From positions 115,457 through 179,456 of the forward strand of contig WION01000086.1 in NCBI GenBank assembly GCA_015039365.1: a stretch of 64,000 bases of DNA, read 5' to 3'. Each line of letters starts with the position of its first letter. The first letter of the stretch is position 1. Source of the DNA: Amanita rubescens (Eukaryota > Basidiomycota > Agaricomycetes > Agaricales > Amanitaceae). Shown here piece by piece: positions 15,829 through 55,690 of this stretch. The notes beneath the pieces are model-generated. The model had not been told where the DNA came from and did no database searches. It saw only the letters and a list, made by a program, of their open reading frames with translations. Made by a program: the position numbers and the translations under genes.

Positions 15829-18800
15829 TCATCGCTTCTGTTGCGAATATTCGTCAAGGATATCCTCGGCGTTTGACAAGTTCTTTTGGGGTTCCCAAGT
15901 GTTTTCGCTTGTATCATAGCCTTTCCATTTGACGAGAAACTGTAATTGACGTCCGATCTTTCGGTGTGCGAGAATAGCTTCTATTTCATATTCTTCTGAT
16001 CCTTCTATCAGATCGGGTGGTGGACGTGTGTCGTTAGGTCCATGGAATTCTGTTTCTTTGAATGGCGATAGTAGACATGCGTGGAAAACGCTGTGTATCT
16101 TCCATTGTTTTGGTAAGTCTAGTTGATAGGTGACAGGTCCTAAGACTTTCTTTATCTTGAAGGGTCCTTCTCGTTTAGGTGCGAGTTTACGTGATTGATA
16201 AGGAATGCGTAGGTTCTTTGAATCTAGCCAAACCTTTTCTCCTTCTTTGAACGGTTTAGAGTGTTTCATCGTTCGTTGTGCCATTTTGAGGCGTGCAAGG
16301 TCGTGTGCTGCCAGAGCTTCTTCTCTTGCTTTGATCAGGAGTCTGATGCGTTCGTCTGCTACAGGGGTAGCTGACTGTTCTGTAACCTGGGGTAGTGCCA
16401 CAGGGTTAGATCCATACATGAGATAGAACGGTGATTGTTTCAGTTCTTCATGCGTTCTAGAATTATGAGCGAATTGCGCGATAGGAAGTATCTTATTCCA
16501 TTTGTCTGGTTCATAGGCGCAGAATATGCGGAGGTATACTTCAAGTACGGCGTTATAGCGTTCCGTTTGTCCATCTGTTTGAGGGTGAAAGGTGGTGCTC
16601 ATCTTGTGTTTGATCTGAAGTGCGCTAGTTATCCCTTTGAAGACTTTTGCTGCGAATTGCGGTCCTCTGTCAGATATCATAATGTCTGGTAGTCCGAAGT
16701 TCTTGAAAACTTCTTTGATGTAGAGGTCGGCGGTTTCAGCTGATGTAATAGTTTTAGGACATAGAATTACTCCCTTTGAAAGTCCTTAGTCGACCACGAC
16801 AAAGATAGAATCAAAACCGTCACTAGGCGGTAGATCGGTGATGAAATCCATAGTGATCTGTTGAAATGGTCGGTGTGCGTGGGATTTAATCGGCATCAGG
16901 GGTGCGGCGGTGGGGTGTGTATTAGGTTTCATCTGTTGACAGGTAAGACATCCGTCGATAAAACTTTTGACAAGTGTTGTCATTCTAGGCCACCAGTAGT
17001 GTTCCCTCAGTAGGCTAAGTGTTTTGAAGAATCCAGGGTGTCCTGCACTCGGTGCTTCATGGTATTCTTTAATAATAAATCGGCGAAGATCGGAGTCCAT
17101 TGGAACGTATGCCTTGTTTTTGAATAGGATGATTCCGTTGTCTTCGGTCCAATTGGTGATTGCTGTGCAGAGAGGCGCTGTTCCTTTCTCCTTTAAGCAT
17201 CTTCTAATAGTTTCAGCAAACTCATCAGTTTGAGTTGCGTTCTTTACTTGATCTCGGAGATCTTCGGCGATGACTTGAATGAATAATGAGTCAGGGAGCA
17301 TTGTGACTGTTTCGTCATCTTCTTCTCCATTAGTGTGATCAGGTCGGCAGGATAAGGCGTCCGCTTGAGTTAATTTTGCTCCAGGTACATGAATTAGTTG
17401 GTAATTATATCTTGAAAGATTATTCCACCATCTTGCTTGTCTAGCTGTGAGACGTTGTGGTGCACGGTAATAGGTTAAGTTCTTGTGATCGCAGTGTATA
17501 GTGAGTGTGTGTTCTGCTCCAAGCAGTAGATATTTCCATTCGTCAAGGGCGTAAATTATGGCAAAGAGTTCTCTGTCGTAGATTTGCCAATTTCGTTCAG
17601 TAGGCGTAAGTGCGTGTGAGAGATATCCACAAGGGTGTAAGTCTCCGTTTTCGTCTTTCTGCATTAAGGCGGCTCCGACAGCCCATTTAGATGCGTCCGT
17701 TTCGAGTATGAAAGGTTGATTGACATCTGGCATCTTTAGTACTGGTGCTGTTACGAAACTTTCCTTTAATGAGTCGAAGGCGACTCTACATTCTAGTGTC
17801 CATTCCCATATCTTGTTTTTCTTCGTTAAGTCATGAAGGGGTCGTGCGAGGTGCGCGAATCCGGATATGAAACGTCTGTAGTAATTTCCAAATCCAAGAA
17901 ACGAGCGTACTTGTTTAACTGTTGTTGGAGGGGGCCAGTCTCTGATTCCAGCGAGTTTTATTGGATCCATTTTTATTGTGTCTTTTGTGATTATCATGCC
18001 TAAGAAGTCCACTTCTTCGGCGGCAAATTTGCATTTTTCAAGTTTCAGGTAAAGATCGTGTTCTTTTAGTTTTGCGAGTACTAGCTTTGTTCTTTTCTCG
18101 AGTTCTTGTTTGTTGCGCGCGTGTATCAAGATGTCATCCATGTAAATGGCGATCCATCCTTCGTTCATGAAGTCCCTGAAGTAATCGTCCATCATAGCTT
18201 GAAATGTTGCTGGTGAATTGCGTAATCCAAAGAACATAACCGTCGGTTTGAATAGTCCTTTATTCGTGATGAATGCGGCTTTCCATTCATCTCCTTCTTT
18301 GATACGAACATTGTTGTATCCCCATCTGATATCTAGTTTCGTAAAGTATTGTGATCCTTTAAGTTGTAGCATCAGATCGGATATGAGTGGTAAGGGGTAA
18401 GAGTTTGGTTTCGTATGTTCGTTCAAGTATTGGTAGTCTTGGCAGGGTCTGAGTGTTTTGCTATCCTTCTTTTCGACATAAAAGAATGGCGCTGCCTGCG
18501 GAGATTTGGATGGTCGTATATATCCTTTAGCTAGTTGTTCTTTGATCCATTCGTCAAGCGTATTTTGTTGTAATGGCGATATTGGGTAGATCTTCCCTTT
18601 CTTTGGTATAAAATCTTCGCGAAGTTCAATTGCGTGATCCCATGATCTTCGGTCAGGGAATCATTCTGACGCTTGTTTTTCAAATATCTCTTTCCATTCA
18701 AGATACTCAGGAGGTAGCGTGATTTCCTTCTGATCGGTGTTGTACTTATGTTCCATTTGTTGAGCTGGTGAATAGCAATTAATTGTGATCTTGTCATAAT

Positions 18801-39455: not shown

Positions 39456-41080
39456 TGTTCGAGTGATGTGAGATATGCGAAGTGGTTGTTGCGAGATGGG
39501 GCGGTAATGCAAAGTGCCTGGAGCTCAAGGGTACCTATCGCAAGATTTATATGCGAAAAAGCCTCTTGTGGATTTGTCAGAACATTCAAACTGTCAGATA
39601 ACTGTAGTACACACGCGGTGAAAAGCGGTGAAAATTAGTACGACCCTCGAAAGGCTGAACACAGCAGCACGTTTGTCAGTCGATGAGAATGTACGACGCC
39701 GAACTAAGGACGGTGCCCATTTAGACCAACGGGCCGGGTGTGGATCAAGTCTTTCTGTCAAACGATGTGAAGGGAGGCGGGGAAGCAATGGTGTCAAGTG
39801 ACATTTAACTTCTCCGATAGGGTGCCAACATTCCAGCGGTCTGCTCATTCGTATGAAAAACTTGAGGTTCAACTTGAAGTTGATTCTGCCAAGACCAATT
39901 GAATGCGGAATTTATCTTGTGCGGAGGTAACATGAGACTAGCAAATGGCTTCTTAACAACGTTTCTCCTGTAGTATGGTTAGCGTAACCTCGTTGCCCGT
40001 CTCGCCCGTTGAAAGTTGTTTGTATGTGTTTGTATCCGCATTCAGGTTAATGGTTATCGAAGTGGTCGAGCTGACCACTCCCGTGGCAAACGGGCCGAGC
40101 GTGCATCAAGTCGACCTGTCAAACAATTGAATGAATGCGAAAAAGAACTGCGTCAAGTGACATCCCAATAATCGTCGAACATTCCACCACCGGTGTGTTC
40201 AGAGGCATTGTGATTGCCTGCATCAAGTCCGCCTGTTGTTATGCTCATGTGGTCAGTGCTATGCCGGCATATTCCGATCAGACTCGTTGTGTACGTCAAG
40301 CCGTGTCCGAGTTCGATTGTGTGTGTTTGTTCGCATCATCCATGTCCAGTACGCTCACCCCTGCTCTCGCCCAGGTACGATGTTATGCAAAGGCTCCAGC
40401 ATTTTCGTCGCGCTGACGCGTTATATACGCATACAACTTTAAGTCCGGGGAAGGATTTGACCGGAATCTTGTGAGACGCGGTCATTCAAACGACTCCCAA
40501 GAAACGCAAGATTCGCCGTTTGGTTCCAGCCTTGCGACGCCTCTCGATCCGGATGACGTTAGTCTGAGGAACACCTCGACTTCCGTAGGCTCGGCGTTGC
40601 GATTTCTCGCTGGGGCTGGGGACGCCCCCCTCCTCGACTATTTTAGATTCAAGAGAAATGGTTCGCCTATCTTATCGATGGCCCACGAGTTGAGCTCTGA
40701 GGGCAAGTTAACTGCCGAAGACATTGCCTCGGATTACACGAATGCAGGAACATCGCGTGTATGCATCGCGATCGGTACGCCCGCCGAGGACACGCTCGTC
40801 CGCAAGAAGGTAAGCACCTATGAATTACACGATTCCGTCCTAAATACCGGAGATGATAGAGCATATACAACTTGCCTAACTCGCCTATCGGTGTACAAGC
40901 CTGGCATTTTAGGCGCTCAGCTTCAGAGAGTTCTTCTGTGTTCGACCCGATGGACGACACGCGGGACGCTTGTATCTCGGAAGATAATAAGACGCATATA
41001 CTACTGGTTGATTCCTCAGAGACAGAAGACTGCACTCCTGGCGACGACTTCGCTTTCGCCGATCAAGATCTACTATTTTG

Positions 41081-44640
<3,560 letters not shown>

Positions 44641-44767: not shown

Positions 44768-45957
44768 ATGTCTGGTACGCTCACCCCTGCTCTCGCCCAG
44801 GTACGATGTTATGCAAAGGCTCCAGCATTTTCGTCGCACTGACGCGTTATATACGCATATAACTTCAAGTCTAGGGAAGGATTTGACCGGAATCCTGTGA
44901 AACGCGGTCATTCAAACGACTCCCAAGAAACGCAAGATTCGCCATTTGGTTCCAGCCTTGCGACGCCTCTCGATCCGGATGACGTTAGTCTGAGGAACAC
45001 CTCGACTTCCGCAGGCTCGGCGTTGCGATTTCTCGCTGGGGCTGGGGACGCCCCTCTCCTCGACTATTTTAGATTCAAGAGAAATGGTTCGCCTATCTTG
45101 TCGATGGCCCGCGAGTTGAGCTCTGAGGGCAAGTTAACGGGTGAAGACATTGCCTCGGATTACACGAATGCAGGAACATCGCGTGTATGCAGCGCGATCG
45201 GTACGCCCGCCGAGGACACGCTCGTCCGCAAGAAGGTAAGCACCTATGAATTACCCGATCCCGTCCTAAATACCGGAGACGATAGAGCATATACAACTTG
45301 CCTAACTCGCCTATCGGTGTACAAGCCCGGCATTTTAGGCGCTCAGCTTCAGAGAGTTCTTCTGTGTTCGACCCGATGGACGATACGCGGGACGCTTGTA
45401 TCTCGGAAGATAATGGGACGCATATACTACTGGTTGATTCCTCAGCGACAGAAGACTGCACTCCTGGCGACGACTTCGCTTTCGCCGATGAAGATCTGCT
45501 ATGGTTCCTTCGTCCCGAACATTTTTCTTCTCTGGATATAACAGCATCGATTACAAGAGTCATTTGCTTCGTTCCTTGGTGTATCTGTGTTGGCGGATCG
45601 ATGCTTCTATGGCCCGATAAACTGGAGCAGGTCGCTTTCGAAGCCGGATATATGGATTCTACGCAAGGCATACGCAGGTTTGCGCACTGGGCGGACGTAG
45701 GCCATCAATTCGTTATGATATTTTTGGCGTTCCTTGCAACTGCTCTCTGGGCTTTACCCGTAACTGTCGGTGCTACTCTTTTCGTTGGTCTCGCCACCCG
45801 TTTCGGATATGTTTGGCGGGGATTCCCAGTGGACCACTCTATGCCCTTGGGAAATGATGACCGGCAGTCACTATACCTTTTGGCCACAGTAGGGCGAGAC
45901 TTGATGGAGAAATCGGTCCTTGCCAAAACCGAAGCAGGGTTTGTTATTATCGCGTAG
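44768..45957 (+). CDS. Unknown protein with C-terminal membrane segments
   Basis: Three exons, 44,768-44,800 (MSGTLTPALAQ), 44,870-45,235 and 45,286-45,957, all phase 0, give 356 residues. The first ~230 residues are polar (SLATPLDPDDVSL, SASESSSVFDPMDD). Two hydrophobic stretches follow (ITRVICFVPWCICVGGSMLL; FVMIFLAFLATALWALPVTV, continuing into VGATLFVGL). The intron ending GATAG at 45,285 is shared with the truncated copy, which supports the model. No family recognised; probably an integral membrane protein. Confidence 0.7.
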
Positions 45958-46446: not shown

Positions 46447-49400
46447 TCACTGGGTCACATGGGTAGTAATCTGTTCATAGAGAAATGTATACAAATCATC
46501 CTCATCAGAGGGTATAGACTTTGAAGTCATCTGAATCTTCAGGTTCTCTGCACAGTCTTGTGTCTTGAACTGGTCCAAGGCATCCAAGATTGAAGCCTGG
46601 ATTGGCTTCTTGATAAAGAATGATAGCTTGGCAATGATATTGATTGCTTTTGGATATTAGCCCAGCAAGTAAATCCAACATAATTGAACACATTACCAAC
46701 TAGGATTTGGCAAGCTGTGATCTGATCACAAGAGGGTTAATTGCATATTGTATATCAAAGATATGTAGGTCTTACATCCTTGAAAAAGCTTGTTTTTGCA
46801 TCTCCAAATGAAGAGAAAAGCTCAGACTTTGAATGATGATGGGCAATACTCTTCAATTGAAATTTAGATGTGAACATACCAGCTATGTAAGAGATGAATT
46901 AGCATGTTCATTAAAACCATTAATAATATCATTTCTCACCTAAAGGGGTGAAAGAATAAATCTGTCACAAAGGGGTGTAAATAATATCTTACAATCTATG
47001 AATATACAGCAGTAAAATCAATGAAGAAAAAAAATATGAGTAGGCTAGTCTTTACTTACTTTCTGATGAGTTTACACATGTCACTAAGTTGTACACTTTG
47101 GGAAAAACTTGATCCACTTACCTCCTATTGACAATGGATGAGATATTCATGCCCAAGTGTGTGCATTGCCACTCACTGCCTGTTAATCATGTGCTGAAGT
47201 TACCTATAAAACAAGAATTGTGGCACTCACTGCCTAACACCATGCAATGCAGTATAATGACACTGTCTAGGAGAAAAAATACAGTGGCACTCACTTCCTT
47301 TTCCAGGTGATAAATTGTAATAAGAAGTTGGCATGACCGTATTGTATTACTCACTTCCTGATGGTCATGGGATGAGATGATAAGATATAAGTCTCAAGAG
47401 AATTTTGTCTAAAATCACTTACCACCTATTGGACATTGGATTGGAATCAATTAAGACTGTCCAATAAAAATATGATATTGCTTACTTCCTGTTGATGAGG
47501 ATTCACATTTGATAAGGTTTCCAAAATGACAGAATCACTTACTTCCTACTCCATCAATGCAATGTAATACTATGATGAGACAGCTGAGGAAAGGAATATG
47601 GTGTCACTCACAAACTGTTCATGATAGAATTGAATGTGATGACATTAATTGGCAGAATAAATGCATCATCACTCACAAACTGACAATTATTACATACAGT
47701 AATGAGAATGTGCAGAGATCAATGCTGGTGTCACTCACTGCCTGGTCATTAGTATGGGATAGGAGTTTGCCTGGTAAAAGATATATGTTTCATACCATCT
47801 ATTGGTTATGGATGAGACTTGGACTACATAAGTGGAAATATGTGCAATATGACTTACACTCTTTTGGTCATGCAATAAAACTATGTAGAAAAGGAAAATG
47901 CATTGTTACTCACTTTCTGAGGGTCAATCATGTCATGAGCTGTTTAAGTTGAAAGAAAGAGGATATTCAGTGATACACACAAGCTTTTGTCATGAGGTGA
48001 GTGTGTTTAACAAAAAAAGAAAGGTATAGTGGTGCATACTTGCTGTTCATTGTATTGCAATGAGATGAACTGAGGAAAATGTAAAGTATCACTTACCATA
48101 GTGGCTCCCTATTGATCTGTTGAAAGATCACCTGGTGGGGAAATGTCCAATTTGACTCACATGCTGTCATGTATGATGTGAGATGTGAAAAAACTGCCTT
48201 TCAGAAAAAATTGATAACACTTACTTGCTATTGGTCATATTACAGTAAAAATGAATCAATAGAAATATGTTACAGCATTCCTTACATTCTGTTGCCATGG
48301 GACAAAATGAGACAAAACTATTTGAAGAAAGATTCCTTCTTACCACCATCTGTTGGAAATGCAACGAGACATAATGGGAAAACTTGCCAACCAGTGTCAC
48401 TGCACCACTTACATACTGTTCACAATGCACATTGCTTAACACAACACAAGGCGGCTATCATTCACTATCACTCACTCTCTGTTTGATTTATGACATGACT
48501 CAGATAAACCTATCTGAGAGATATGGACTGATGCTCACTGTCTGTTGGTCATGGGATAAGACCATCTGCCATAAAGTTTATGCTACCACTCACTCTCTGT
48601 TGGTCAATGTATGAGATATGATATTATAAATGAGGCTCAGAGTTACTTACTGTCTGTTGTTAATAGAATGAGACTAAAAAAGAAAAATATAATGTACATA
48701 TCACTGACTGTCTATGACCAAAGAAAATCATAAAAACATGAGGTTAGGCATGATGTCACTTACAAACTGTTTGCCATTGAATGATATATTCTTTAGACTA
48801 GCTAAGGAGATGTGCATAACATCACTCACTTTCTGTAGACCACAAAATTTGGCAGATGAGATTGTCTGACAGGAATAGATGCAGCATTGCTTACATCCTG
48901 TTGGAATAAGATATGGAGACTGCCTGAGAGATCACAGCCCACTTACAGACTGTTATGACAGTGTATGCCAAGATCTTTGAGGTTGCAGTAGAACAAATCT
49001 ACAGTACCACTCACAAACTGTTGGCTCATAGTCTGAAAACTGCCTGACCACCACAAATTGTATGCTTACAAGCTATTCATCATGTGGCATGGGAACAGTG
49101 TTTCATGGGAAATAACAGTGTGACTCACTGTCTATTAGTCACAACATTTTAATCAGTGAGGCTGCCATCTAGCAAACAGTTGGTGTTACTCACTTTCTAT
49201 TGGTGATATACATGATGAGATGGCCCGGAAAAAATGTGCAGATTCACTTACAAACTATTGTGATCAGATGAGGTCAGGAGTGAGTGCTTGGCAGAGACTC
49301 TATTGGTTAATACTCACTTCCTCCTGGTCATGAAATGAGATCAGGTGTTCTACAATAAAGGGTTACATAAAAACCCACTGTCTATTTGGCATAATGTTGA

Positions 49401-51577
49401 ACACCCAAGAGAAATGTACAAAGTCACTCACTGGCTGTTGGTCATGAAATGGGATGCAGTCCAAGTGATTAAAACAAAGTATGCTCACCTGCTATTGACA
49501 ATAGGATAAAATGAAATGAGATCCCTACACAAAACAGGGTAAACTTACTGTCTGTTAGTCACACAGTGACTCAAATGAGATGCCAGATGTTCCTAGCAGT
49601 GAAATGTACAGCACCACTCACTGCCTTTTAGTCATGTGGCATCAGATGCAAAGCCTCTGGTAGAGAATGTGGGTATACTCACTTTATTCAGTTGCAAATT
49701 AGGATATGCATGGTGCATCTTTGCAGAAAAAAAAGTGATACTTACAGTCTGTTGGAATTGAGATAGCATGATAATGTGTGGTGTGGAATATAACACACTC
49801 TCTATTTGTTGTACAATGCTTATGTAATCAAATGGCCTATCAGAATATAATTTTGCTCACTGGAGTTCTGGTGGGGCCATGGATGAAAAGCATGGCAGAA
49901 AAATGGGCCATGTCACTCACAAACTGGTGATGGTAAGATGAACACTTAGTATCATGGTCATGGCTACTTCTTACCCACTGTTATCAATGTCATTAGATAA
50001 CTGTAGAAAATGTTGCAGTTTCACTCACATTCATTTCATTATCCTGTTTTCAAGATGTTGTTGCCTATCAGACCTTCCTACAGGTCAAGGGAAAAGTGTA
50101 ACATACATCCTGATTATCAGTCAACCAAGCATTTGTTTTGGAAAATCATACTCACGTCCTATTTCAATTTTCCCAACAGTCCATGCATCTTTGCACAAAT
50201 GGAGCTCACATTTCTGTCTACCTGATTTTTACTTAGCTTTGTAGATCCACATCACAATATTTTGCAAACCTACCCAATAATGGGGAAACTTGCTAAGAAC
50301 CATGCTCATGACTGTACTCCATGAGAGTTCACTTTGAGCCAAGATATGTCTAAGGGTAGTTAATATCTGAAATTAACATTCTGAATCTGATCCTCACTGA
50401 AGTGCAGTATTTGAACAAAGATCAAGATTGTTCATTTGTGTTGAGACAAAGAGTTCTTGTAGGCTACTATCATCAATTGCTTCTGCTGTCACTGTAGCTA
50501 ATTCAGGACAGTCCTTCTCTGGCAAATCCATATCTGCCAAAAATCATTACTTTTGCAACAAGGATTATTTGTTTTCCCTCCCTTCCAATTGTACATATGC
50601 TTTTGGAGGATGTTTAGTGTTCAAAACCTTGGGCAGATAAATTTGCTGGAAAGCAGCATTAGCATTTATCCTAGCTTCACCCCACTTATCTTTATCTTCT
50701 CCTGAATCACACAATTTTCCATATTCTGCAATGATTTGGCCATCAAATTTAGTGAATATAGTCACCAAGGGGACTATTTAGATGAAATTTATATGTATGT
50801 AGACTGCAGTTGGCCTTGGACAGGACTTACCCTTCCCAGTTCCCTTGCTGAAAAATTCAAGTTCTGCAGATAAGAGAGGGCGAGGGCTGTCCATGGGTAT
50901 ACAATACCTATGAAAATTCATTCATTCACAGCAATGCAAAGAACCAGAATAAAATACCAAATTGCATGTAGCTGATCTCTTAGCTCAATTGAAGCAGAAC
51001 GCTTTTCAATGAATTTCCAAACAAGCTCCAGCTCCTCAGTACCACCAGATTCAAATCCTTGGGAATCATGGAAGACAAAGTTGCTGCCTTTATAAGTAAT
51101 CTGGTGCTCAATCTCATGGAGACCCCTCTGAAGATTGTTGCAATCCATGAAAGCATCCATATTCCTTTATTTGACTCACTTCAGCAGATGGCATCAAATG
51201 TGTTTTAGAGGGTTCCAGTTTTTCACCTAAAAATCCTGAATGTCACAACAGTAGAAGCCTTTATTTTAGCTCAGCTTACCATTCTGGTCATATATCATGG
51301 AGATTGTCCCCCGTGCCACACTACAAACCTTCTCAAGAATGGTTGTTTTTCCAGCATTAGCCCTCCCTATGACAAGGATACGAAAATAGGGGCATCTGTA
51401 TCGATCTTTAAGTGTCCTAAGCAAGAAGTCTGCATCGGTTAGCAAGTCAAATTCAGATCCAAACAACTGATGATAAAACTCACTGGACACCTTGCCGGAA
51501 TTGTAGTTTAACTTTGAAATCTCTGCCAGCCTTGATTGACGACTCGGATGTGCATCGGTGATCTCCGAGTCTGCCAT
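46447..51577 (-). CDS. Mushroom-type P-loop GTPase with an extreme micro-exon region
   Basis: Start MADSEITDAH at 51,577. Exons 51,577-51,280, 51,226-51,180, 51,127-50,958, 50,907-50,831, 50,773-50,582, 50,533-50,398 and 50,349-50,274 give 332 residues. Motifs: Walker A GRANAGKTT, switch II FHDSQGFESGG, IWYCIP, and the G4-type motif FTKFD, then LFVSTQMNNLDLC. About 55 micro-exons follow (50,221-46,880), then exons 46,820-46,776 (LFSSFGDAKTSFFKD), 46,721-46,697 and 46,646-46,447. These join in phase to a coherent tail (ITACQILV, INIIAKLSFFIKKPIQ) and a TGA. Total is about 485 residues. The intron after VQLE starts GG rather than GT (50,581). The family is known from multi-copy GTPase-domain genes of Agaricomycetes; the cellular role is unknown. 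Confidence 0.85.
46880..50221 (-). repeat. Array of ~55 micro-exons, mostly one codon each
   Basis: On the minus strand AG|NNN|GT[GA]AG recurs about every 50-70 nt. Examples: GAC 50,158-56; GAT 50,109-07; TGG 49,977-75; TTT 49,923-21; GCA 49,624-22; CAG 49,491-89; CCA 49,434-32; TTT 49,254-52; AAA 49,196-94; CTT 49,072-70; TCT 48,949-47; GAT 48,897-95; TAT 48,415-13; AAT 48,288-86; CAT 48,163-61; AGT 47,860-58; ATG 47,798-96; GAA 47,545-43, 47,488-86, 47,357-55 and 47,297-95; GAG 47,124-22; ATT 46,995-93; CTG 46,882-80. I count 48 of exactly 3 nt, plus 6-, 12- and 15-nt ones. Exceptions: a 7-nt unit (49,867-61), one without AG (about 49,683) and one of zero length (46,940/39). Confidence 0.85.

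Positions 51578-52022: not shown

Positions 52023-55690
<3,668 letters not shown>

Follow-up and report, generated by a model that had tools for sequence, protein, structure and literature searches.

Dozens of Candidate One-Codon Exons in Series in a GTPase Gene Family of Amanita rubescens

Introduction

Spliceosomes, those of fungi included, can include exons of 1–3 nucleotides (nt) (PMC12940212, PMC5639578). A 1-nt exon has been described in the Fusarium gene CYP621A (PMC12940212), two 3-nt exons in the lipS genes (PMC5639578), and a 3-bp exon in the Drosophila gene hth (PMC7392893). While such exons are known one or two per gene, the GTPase gene of the fungus Amanita rubescens described in this study carries dozens of exon-like units of a single codon in series. 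The gene lies on the minus strand of a 64,000-nt stretch of DNA (assembly GCA_015039365.1, contig WION01000086.1, positions 115,457 to 179,456 of the forward strand), which is called the window throughout, and the array of units occupies positions 46,880 to 50,221 of it.

Several systems resemble this array in part. The schistosome micro-exon genes share with it the very small symmetrical exons in series and the variable proteins (PMC4350168), but here each gene has dozens, mostly of one codon, and encodes a fungal GTPase; the observed variation is one of DNA sequence between genes, and micro-exons do not make up most of the coding region. The introner-like elements of fungi are many near-identical spliceosomal introns per genome (PMC4457414), a likeness that holds for the young arrays described below and not for the array of the window. 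These elements are found in unrelated genes, whereas the intron copies listed here lie at three-nucleotide distances within or beside the genes of a single family. Coding minisatellites such as the zinc-finger array of PRDM9, for which positive selection together with concerted evolution has been described, are likewise tandem repeats in which the body is conserved and a few codons are hypervariable (PMC8925151); in the present case, the conserved body is an intron that would be spliced out, and one repeat adds one amino acid. The repeats of the fungal NLR genes het-d and het-e also form variable families with high internal conservation (PMC12222747, PMC4986451). In contrast to them, no NLR domain was found by Pfam in the five family proteins scanned, and the predicted model shows no folded repeat in the variable part. 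Finally, the predicted combination of a G domain with a helical domain recalls the immunity-related GTPases (IRG) Irga6 and GM4951. Searches of PubMed Central, which covers mainly open papers, yielded single tiny exons, introners, and micro-exon genes, and no array of one-codon exons was noticed among the results.

Results

The Array of Three-Nucleotide Units in the Window Gene

The pattern AG-N3-GTRAG was counted without any reward for 3-nt or in-frame exons and occurred 42 times in 3.7 kb of the minus strand of the window, while each of the other spacers between AG and GTRAG in the range of 0–15 nt was seen at most three times. In 1000 dinucleotide shuffles of the same stretch, the mean number of patterns was 0.44 and the maximum was 3; the remaining window, both strands together, contained 13. 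The shuffles and the peak at exactly three nucleotides led us to reject chance or low complexity as the source of the pattern.

The chain parse resolved 54 exon-like units on the minus strand from 50,221 to 46,880, of which 48 were 3 nt long, two 6 nt, two 12 nt, one 15 nt, and one 7 nt; since this parse scores 3-nt and in-frame exons higher, the unit lengths are biased that way. The parts of the gene are as follows (P numbers denote database proteins and L numbers loci of the family):

50948..51577, minus strand: first GTPase exons with the P-loop GRANAGKTT (tblastn of the annotated proteins P0001/P0002; open reading frame list)
50397..50906, minus strand: further GTPase exons; the annotated P0002 stops here (...NTALQ)
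50274..50349, minus strand: final ordinary exon upstream of the array, HILAQSELSWSTVMSMVLSKFPHYW, with the donor GTAGGT next to it at 50,273
46880..50221, minus strand: array of 54 exon-like units, 48 of one codon (pattern count, shuffles, chain parse)
50029..50043, minus strand: 15-nt exon, DNEMN (parse, by eye)
49861..49867, minus strand: 7-nt unit AACTCCA (chain parse)
46880..48042, minus strand: longest unbroken one-codon run, spelling QLKSMAFFEEVEEAAEKIL
46776..46826, minus strand: 51-nt exon SELFSSFGDAKTSFFKD (chain parse)
46697..46721, minus strand: exon ITACQILV(A)
46447..46646, minus strand: last coding exon, helical C-terminal domain, ending at the stop codon TGA (tblastn of P0083 and P0019)

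The GTPase and C-terminal parts of the gene thus lie in ordinary exons. The original prediction, made from the letters of the window, had proposed about 48 consecutive one-codon exons. Their number agrees with the parse; they are interrupted by longer exons, and the longest unbroken run contains 18 exons by run count or 19 with the final CTG that the chain parse adds. The proposed intron lengths of 46–70 nt hold in the parse, save two of 110 and 121 nt, which are probably sites of a decayed unit. The peptides EFKTLFSDKF and FFEEVEEAAEK are spelled by the units as predicted, and the frame enters the C-terminal exons in phase; the exon that had been placed at 46,820 exists, with its start moved to 46,826. 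It had also been stated that the few longer exons, of 6, 12, and 15 nt, keep the frame. The reading frame does reach the C-terminal exons, but the 7-nt unit AACTCCA, which is alike in the copies L010–L012, disrupts it if included. Skipping this unit leaves an intron of about 119 nt and an intact frame, and it is probably a dead, skipped unit. At 49745–49625, an acceptor has apparently decayed (AT stands where AG would precede AAA), giving the 121-nt intron; this is perhaps a step of codon loss with the frame unaltered.

The similarity of the introns within the window array (mean 0.571 against 0.546 when shuffled) is near chance, and Tandem Repeats Finder reported no tandem-repeat array there. 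A simple tandem repeat was rejected for the window on these two results.

Stop-Free Triplets and Preserved Splice Sites in the Paralogues

The window gene is a member of a large GTPase gene family of A. rubescens, with at least 150 genome matches of the C-terminal piece and at least 201 of the GTPase piece, counts that include near-identical contigs. Among the database matches of its GTPase portion, the A. rubescens protein F5887DRAFT_1063593 (P0002) ranks second. In all 18 family intervals examined (17 retrieved from the genome plus that of the window, some of them near copies), the spacer from AG to GTRAG peaked at exactly 3 nt, with 8–58 copies each. Fifteen further family regions were picked by kinship or by matches to one intron, and these are therefore not a random sample. 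Copies of the window that are 90–100% alike retain the one-codon pattern. By eye, the arrays of many paralogues end alike, with VDRx first and E-I-L/C-xELFSLFG last, while their middles vary in both length and sequence. Many paralogues also have a 12–18-nt exon at the place of the 15-nt exon of the window, in several followed by W (by eye), and exons resembling SELFSSFGDAKTSFFKD, of similar length, occur in many of them.

No stop codon was present in the 763 one-codon exons of 18 arrays, as against 44.8 expected from the base frequencies per position, in a parse run without a stop penalty. This count excludes the near copies L010, L011, L012, L014, and L018 and includes L019, which is close to L016; L001–L009, L017, and L028 lie outside the parsed set. 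When consecutive one-codon exons were joined (858 triplets), frames 0, 1, and 2 contained 0, 13, and 99 stops, respectively. The pattern-only count gave stops in 4 of 900 triplets, where 61 were expected, and all four lie outside the parsed chains and arise where a donor is read in a shifted register. The third base of the 763 exons is A or T in 692 cases and C in five.

The comparison of the window with its 90% copy L012 showed changes at 5 of 144 sites of the one-codon exons (p 0.02), none of them among the 48 second positions, and at 221 of 2728 intron sites. Only one of the 224 GT/AG letters differed (p 2e-7).

Linker Peptides in Transcript-like Proteins of Relatives

The three public gene models examined all end before the array or bypass it: those of P0002 and its near relative P0001 stop upstream, and the NCBI model P0087, which matches the locus L014, joins straight across. 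Meanwhile, the database protein P0083 (418 amino acids, uninterrupted, on a 1669-nt contig, in a cluster of this single sequence) contains a linker that has 21 identities over 38 aligned residues, and a score of 121, to the peptide of the L023 one-codon exons taken by themselves. The maximum was 51 in 2000 shuffles, and the next best array scored 26; when all 33 arrays were shuffled, the best score in 300 rounds was again 51. With the whole of P0083 as the tblastn query, L023 again led the fetched loci, with 617 summed bits against 426. As the matching pieces of L023 lie apart in the genome, P0083 reads across introns; its contig is probably the spliced transcript of a relative.

Six further proteins (P0013, P0019, P0020, P0004, P0023, and P0086) have linkers with scores of 57–87 as compared with best-of-33 shuffle maxima of 48–57, and the observed score was reached in none of the 300 shuffles for any of them. 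P0004 and P0086 exceed the shuffles only narrowly, and the matched stretch of P0023 and P0086 is only 13 residues long; downstream of it, these two may continue in a shifted frame or in a retained intron. P0013 and P0019 have common flanks and, by eye, middles unlike in sequence and length. We infer that the contigs of these transcript-like proteins are RNA. A search with the tail of P0019 found P0013 alone as a further protein of this kind, and none of the 168 candidate database proteins for the tail of the window gene was significant.

In the AlphaFold model of the relative P0019, the segment corresponding to the array is disordered, flanked by a GTPase domain and a helical domain that are both modelled with confidence. 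IRG folds (Irga6, GM4951) top both structure-search lists, with 10–13% sequence identity, a root-mean-square deviation of 4–8 Å, and other GTPase folds close behind; the Pfam scan of five family proteins gave sub-threshold matches only. The layout is IRG-like, and we read the array as putative spliced coding sequence for a hypervariable linker.

Splice Signals of the Array Introns

GTRAG donors were found in 78% of 514 introns of old arrays and in 91% of 436 introns of young ones, and the acceptors were mostly CAG or TAG. The median intron length was 58 nt in the old and 62 nt in the young arrays, and a branch-like motif was present in 365 old and 369 young introns, its median distance to the intron end being 8 nt. 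Stwintrons, in which an internal intron splits an external splice signal, are absent from the parsed chain of the window array: every unit carries a separate acceptor and donor, and the triplet lies between them. The secondary structure of the introns was nothing special (z 0.09). We infer that these signals suit recognition across the intron, with adjacent sites used in turn.

Young Arrays with Near-Identical Introns

The introns of some arrays are copies of one 62-nt intron. It has at least 410 matches in the genome, and those listed are exact, mostly at 65-nt steps, and located in arrays of the family or close to its genes (40 of 158 candidates scored). Units of 62 + 3 nt stand head to tail in L034–L038, L040, and L042; the window array is without such a period.

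Within the five most uniform arrays, L034–L038, the introns differ by 1.3–2.4% and the codons by 35–65% (2.2% and 65% in L037, 1.3% and 35% in L038). Between arrays, L037 differs from L038 at 33 of 3178 intron and 57 of 156 codon sites, from L036 at 7 of 3098 and 4 of 153, and from L034 at 9 of 3169 and 9 of 156, and the per-site ratio of codon to intron difference in the young-array pairs ranges from 11 to 35. L034, L036, and L037 differ from one another in two blocks of adjacent codons, so the changes represent few independent events; replacement of codon blocks fits with conversion between arrays. Codon blocks were repeated beyond the shuffles in L038, L035, L015, and L024 (p <0.02), and the other 14 of 18 arrays had p >0.1.

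Ten of 13 young arrays have an open frame +1 as well, with G or C at 64–87% of third positions; in most young arrays, it would read G/C-ending codons and an acidic peptide. L034, L038, and L041 contain exons of 2 or 4 nt amid otherwise regular units. L043 is an array of the young type with one 6-nt exon (CAAGCA), after which the sequence is free of the pattern, and it is perhaps a truncated copy.

Neighbourhood of the Window Gene

Near-identical open reading frames flank the GTPase gene on both sides (42588–42920 and 53537–53872, minus strand, by eye), from which the gene seems to lie inside a local duplication. Another near-identical pair (40471–41196 and 44897–45541, plus strand, by eye) marks a second local duplication adjoining it. 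The open reading frames at 15829–18426 of the minus strand resemble what we take to be a Ty3/gypsy retrotransposon polyprotein (by eye).

Discussion

We consider it likely that the spliceosome joins the codons of the array into a linker between the GTPase and the helical C-terminal domains and that the arrays evolve as tandem repeats of a codon plus an intron. The original prediction of one-codon coding exons draws support from the paralogues, the absence of stops, the preserved splice sites, and the transcript-like proteins; the constraint on the codons between close copies is weak. The gene family, and the near-identical introns with hypervariable codons of some arrays, come in addition to that prediction. 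Splicing would proceed by intron definition: each intron of about 58 nt has its own donor and acceptor and mostly a branch-like motif near the acceptor, so sequential removal is possible without the recognition of any exon as an exon. The array would gain, lose, and alter units as a tandem repeat, the unit being 65 nt when young. Near-identical introns would provide the homology for unequal exchange and gene conversion, while selection for difference would hold the codons apart. The window gene would exemplify an aged array, in which the introns have diverged and the one-codon structure and the peptide have endured. The encoded loop, hypervariable and disordered, would sit on an IRG/dynamin-like GTPase and perhaps recognise non-self or pathogens.

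A number of observations speak against this interpretation. Compared with L011, the window changed at 6 of 144 sites of the one-codon exons and at 114 of 2732 intron sites, an equal rate, and the amino acid is altered in four of the five changed codons in the comparison with L012 and in four of the six with L011. From these counts, the splice sites are clearly kept and the amino acids not clearly so, and the codon constraint among the close copies of the window appears weak. If a unit were copied with its codon, the codons should be as alike as the introns, which is not what the young arrays display; the mismatch points either to extreme selection for difference or to separate origins of codons and introns. 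The open frame +1, the 2- and 4-nt exons, and the units of several old arrays whose length is not a multiple of three add to these points, as do the bypass of the array in P0087 and the lack of an observed cDNA of the window gene.

A more specific proposal, to which we give slightly less than an even chance, is an array of codon cassettes. The identical 62-nt introns would serve as spacers that allow single codons to be inserted, deleted, or swapped by recombination, or the introns would be laid at every third nucleotide by some process, and the family would rewrite a single recognition loop residue by residue.

It is less probable, but worth retaining, that introner-type invasion placed an intron copy after about every third nucleotide of a pre-existing exon, so that identical introns part old, unrelated codons. 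The original prediction had likewise raised the idea of introns entering an uninterrupted exon codon by codon. We keep this explanation because of the codon–intron mismatch, the open frame +1, the 2- and 4-nt exons, and the units not divisible by three. The occasional 6-nt exon agrees with it as well, as does the finding that the codon order of 14 of 18 arrays repeats itself no more than shuffles do; moreover, past the 4-nt exon of L041, the preference for A or T as the third base stays with the reading frame instead of the exon end (eight codons, by eye). On the other hand, no fetched young copy has many exons of 6–12 nt, the codons change in blocks even between copies with introns more than 99% identical, and relatives such as P0088 and P0110 have a short linker only (by eye). 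Searches for an uninterrupted source of the L037, L042, or P0083 sequence in the genome returned none, and they yielded no candidates at all, which makes them weak tests. No insertion mechanism that spaces its copies by exactly three nucleotides is known to us. The capture of a copy of another gene was considered too and rejected, as the concatenated triplets of L037 and L042 matched nothing, in a test that is weak for its zero candidates.

That the match of P0083 to L023 stems from an intronless retrocopy, in which case it would attest the peptide and not the splicing of the array, is improbable. The cluster of P0083 is one sequence, but seven such proteins with different linkers exist. The uninterrupted P0083 peptide was not found in the genome by a search without candidates that missed even the long exon of L023 itself and shows little.

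We regard as slightly less probable again the earlier doubt that the whole 3.4 kb might be removed as one intron, or by a relay of recursive splicing, with the triplets being splice-site flanks absent from the mRNA. The model P0087, the missing cDNA, and the equal rates in the L011 comparison would agree with it, but stops are absent from frame 0 and many in frame 2, and the transcript-like proteins contain the linker peptides. The doubt is answered for the family and stands for the window gene. An artefact of assembly, or a minisatellite that mimics splice sites by chance, is scarcely credible: young arrays are 65-nt tandem repeats, difficult to assemble, and the copies L010, L034, and L038 have 1-nt indels, but the array of the window lacks tandem repetition and yet keeps its pattern in copies 90–100% alike, and the protein evidence is independent of the assembly. 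The three-nucleotide peak across the family, the comparison of the window with its close copies, and the match of P0083 already contradict this explanation.

On the proposed interpretation, the public models of at least some members of this large gene family would be cut short. If it is true, spliceosomes build a protein segment from dozens of three-nucleotide exons, which would be a very clear natural case for intron definition. The arrays would offer living intermediates for the question of how introns multiply. Introns may then act as recombination handles for single amino acids, and the genes of this family could alter their protein one amino acid at a time.

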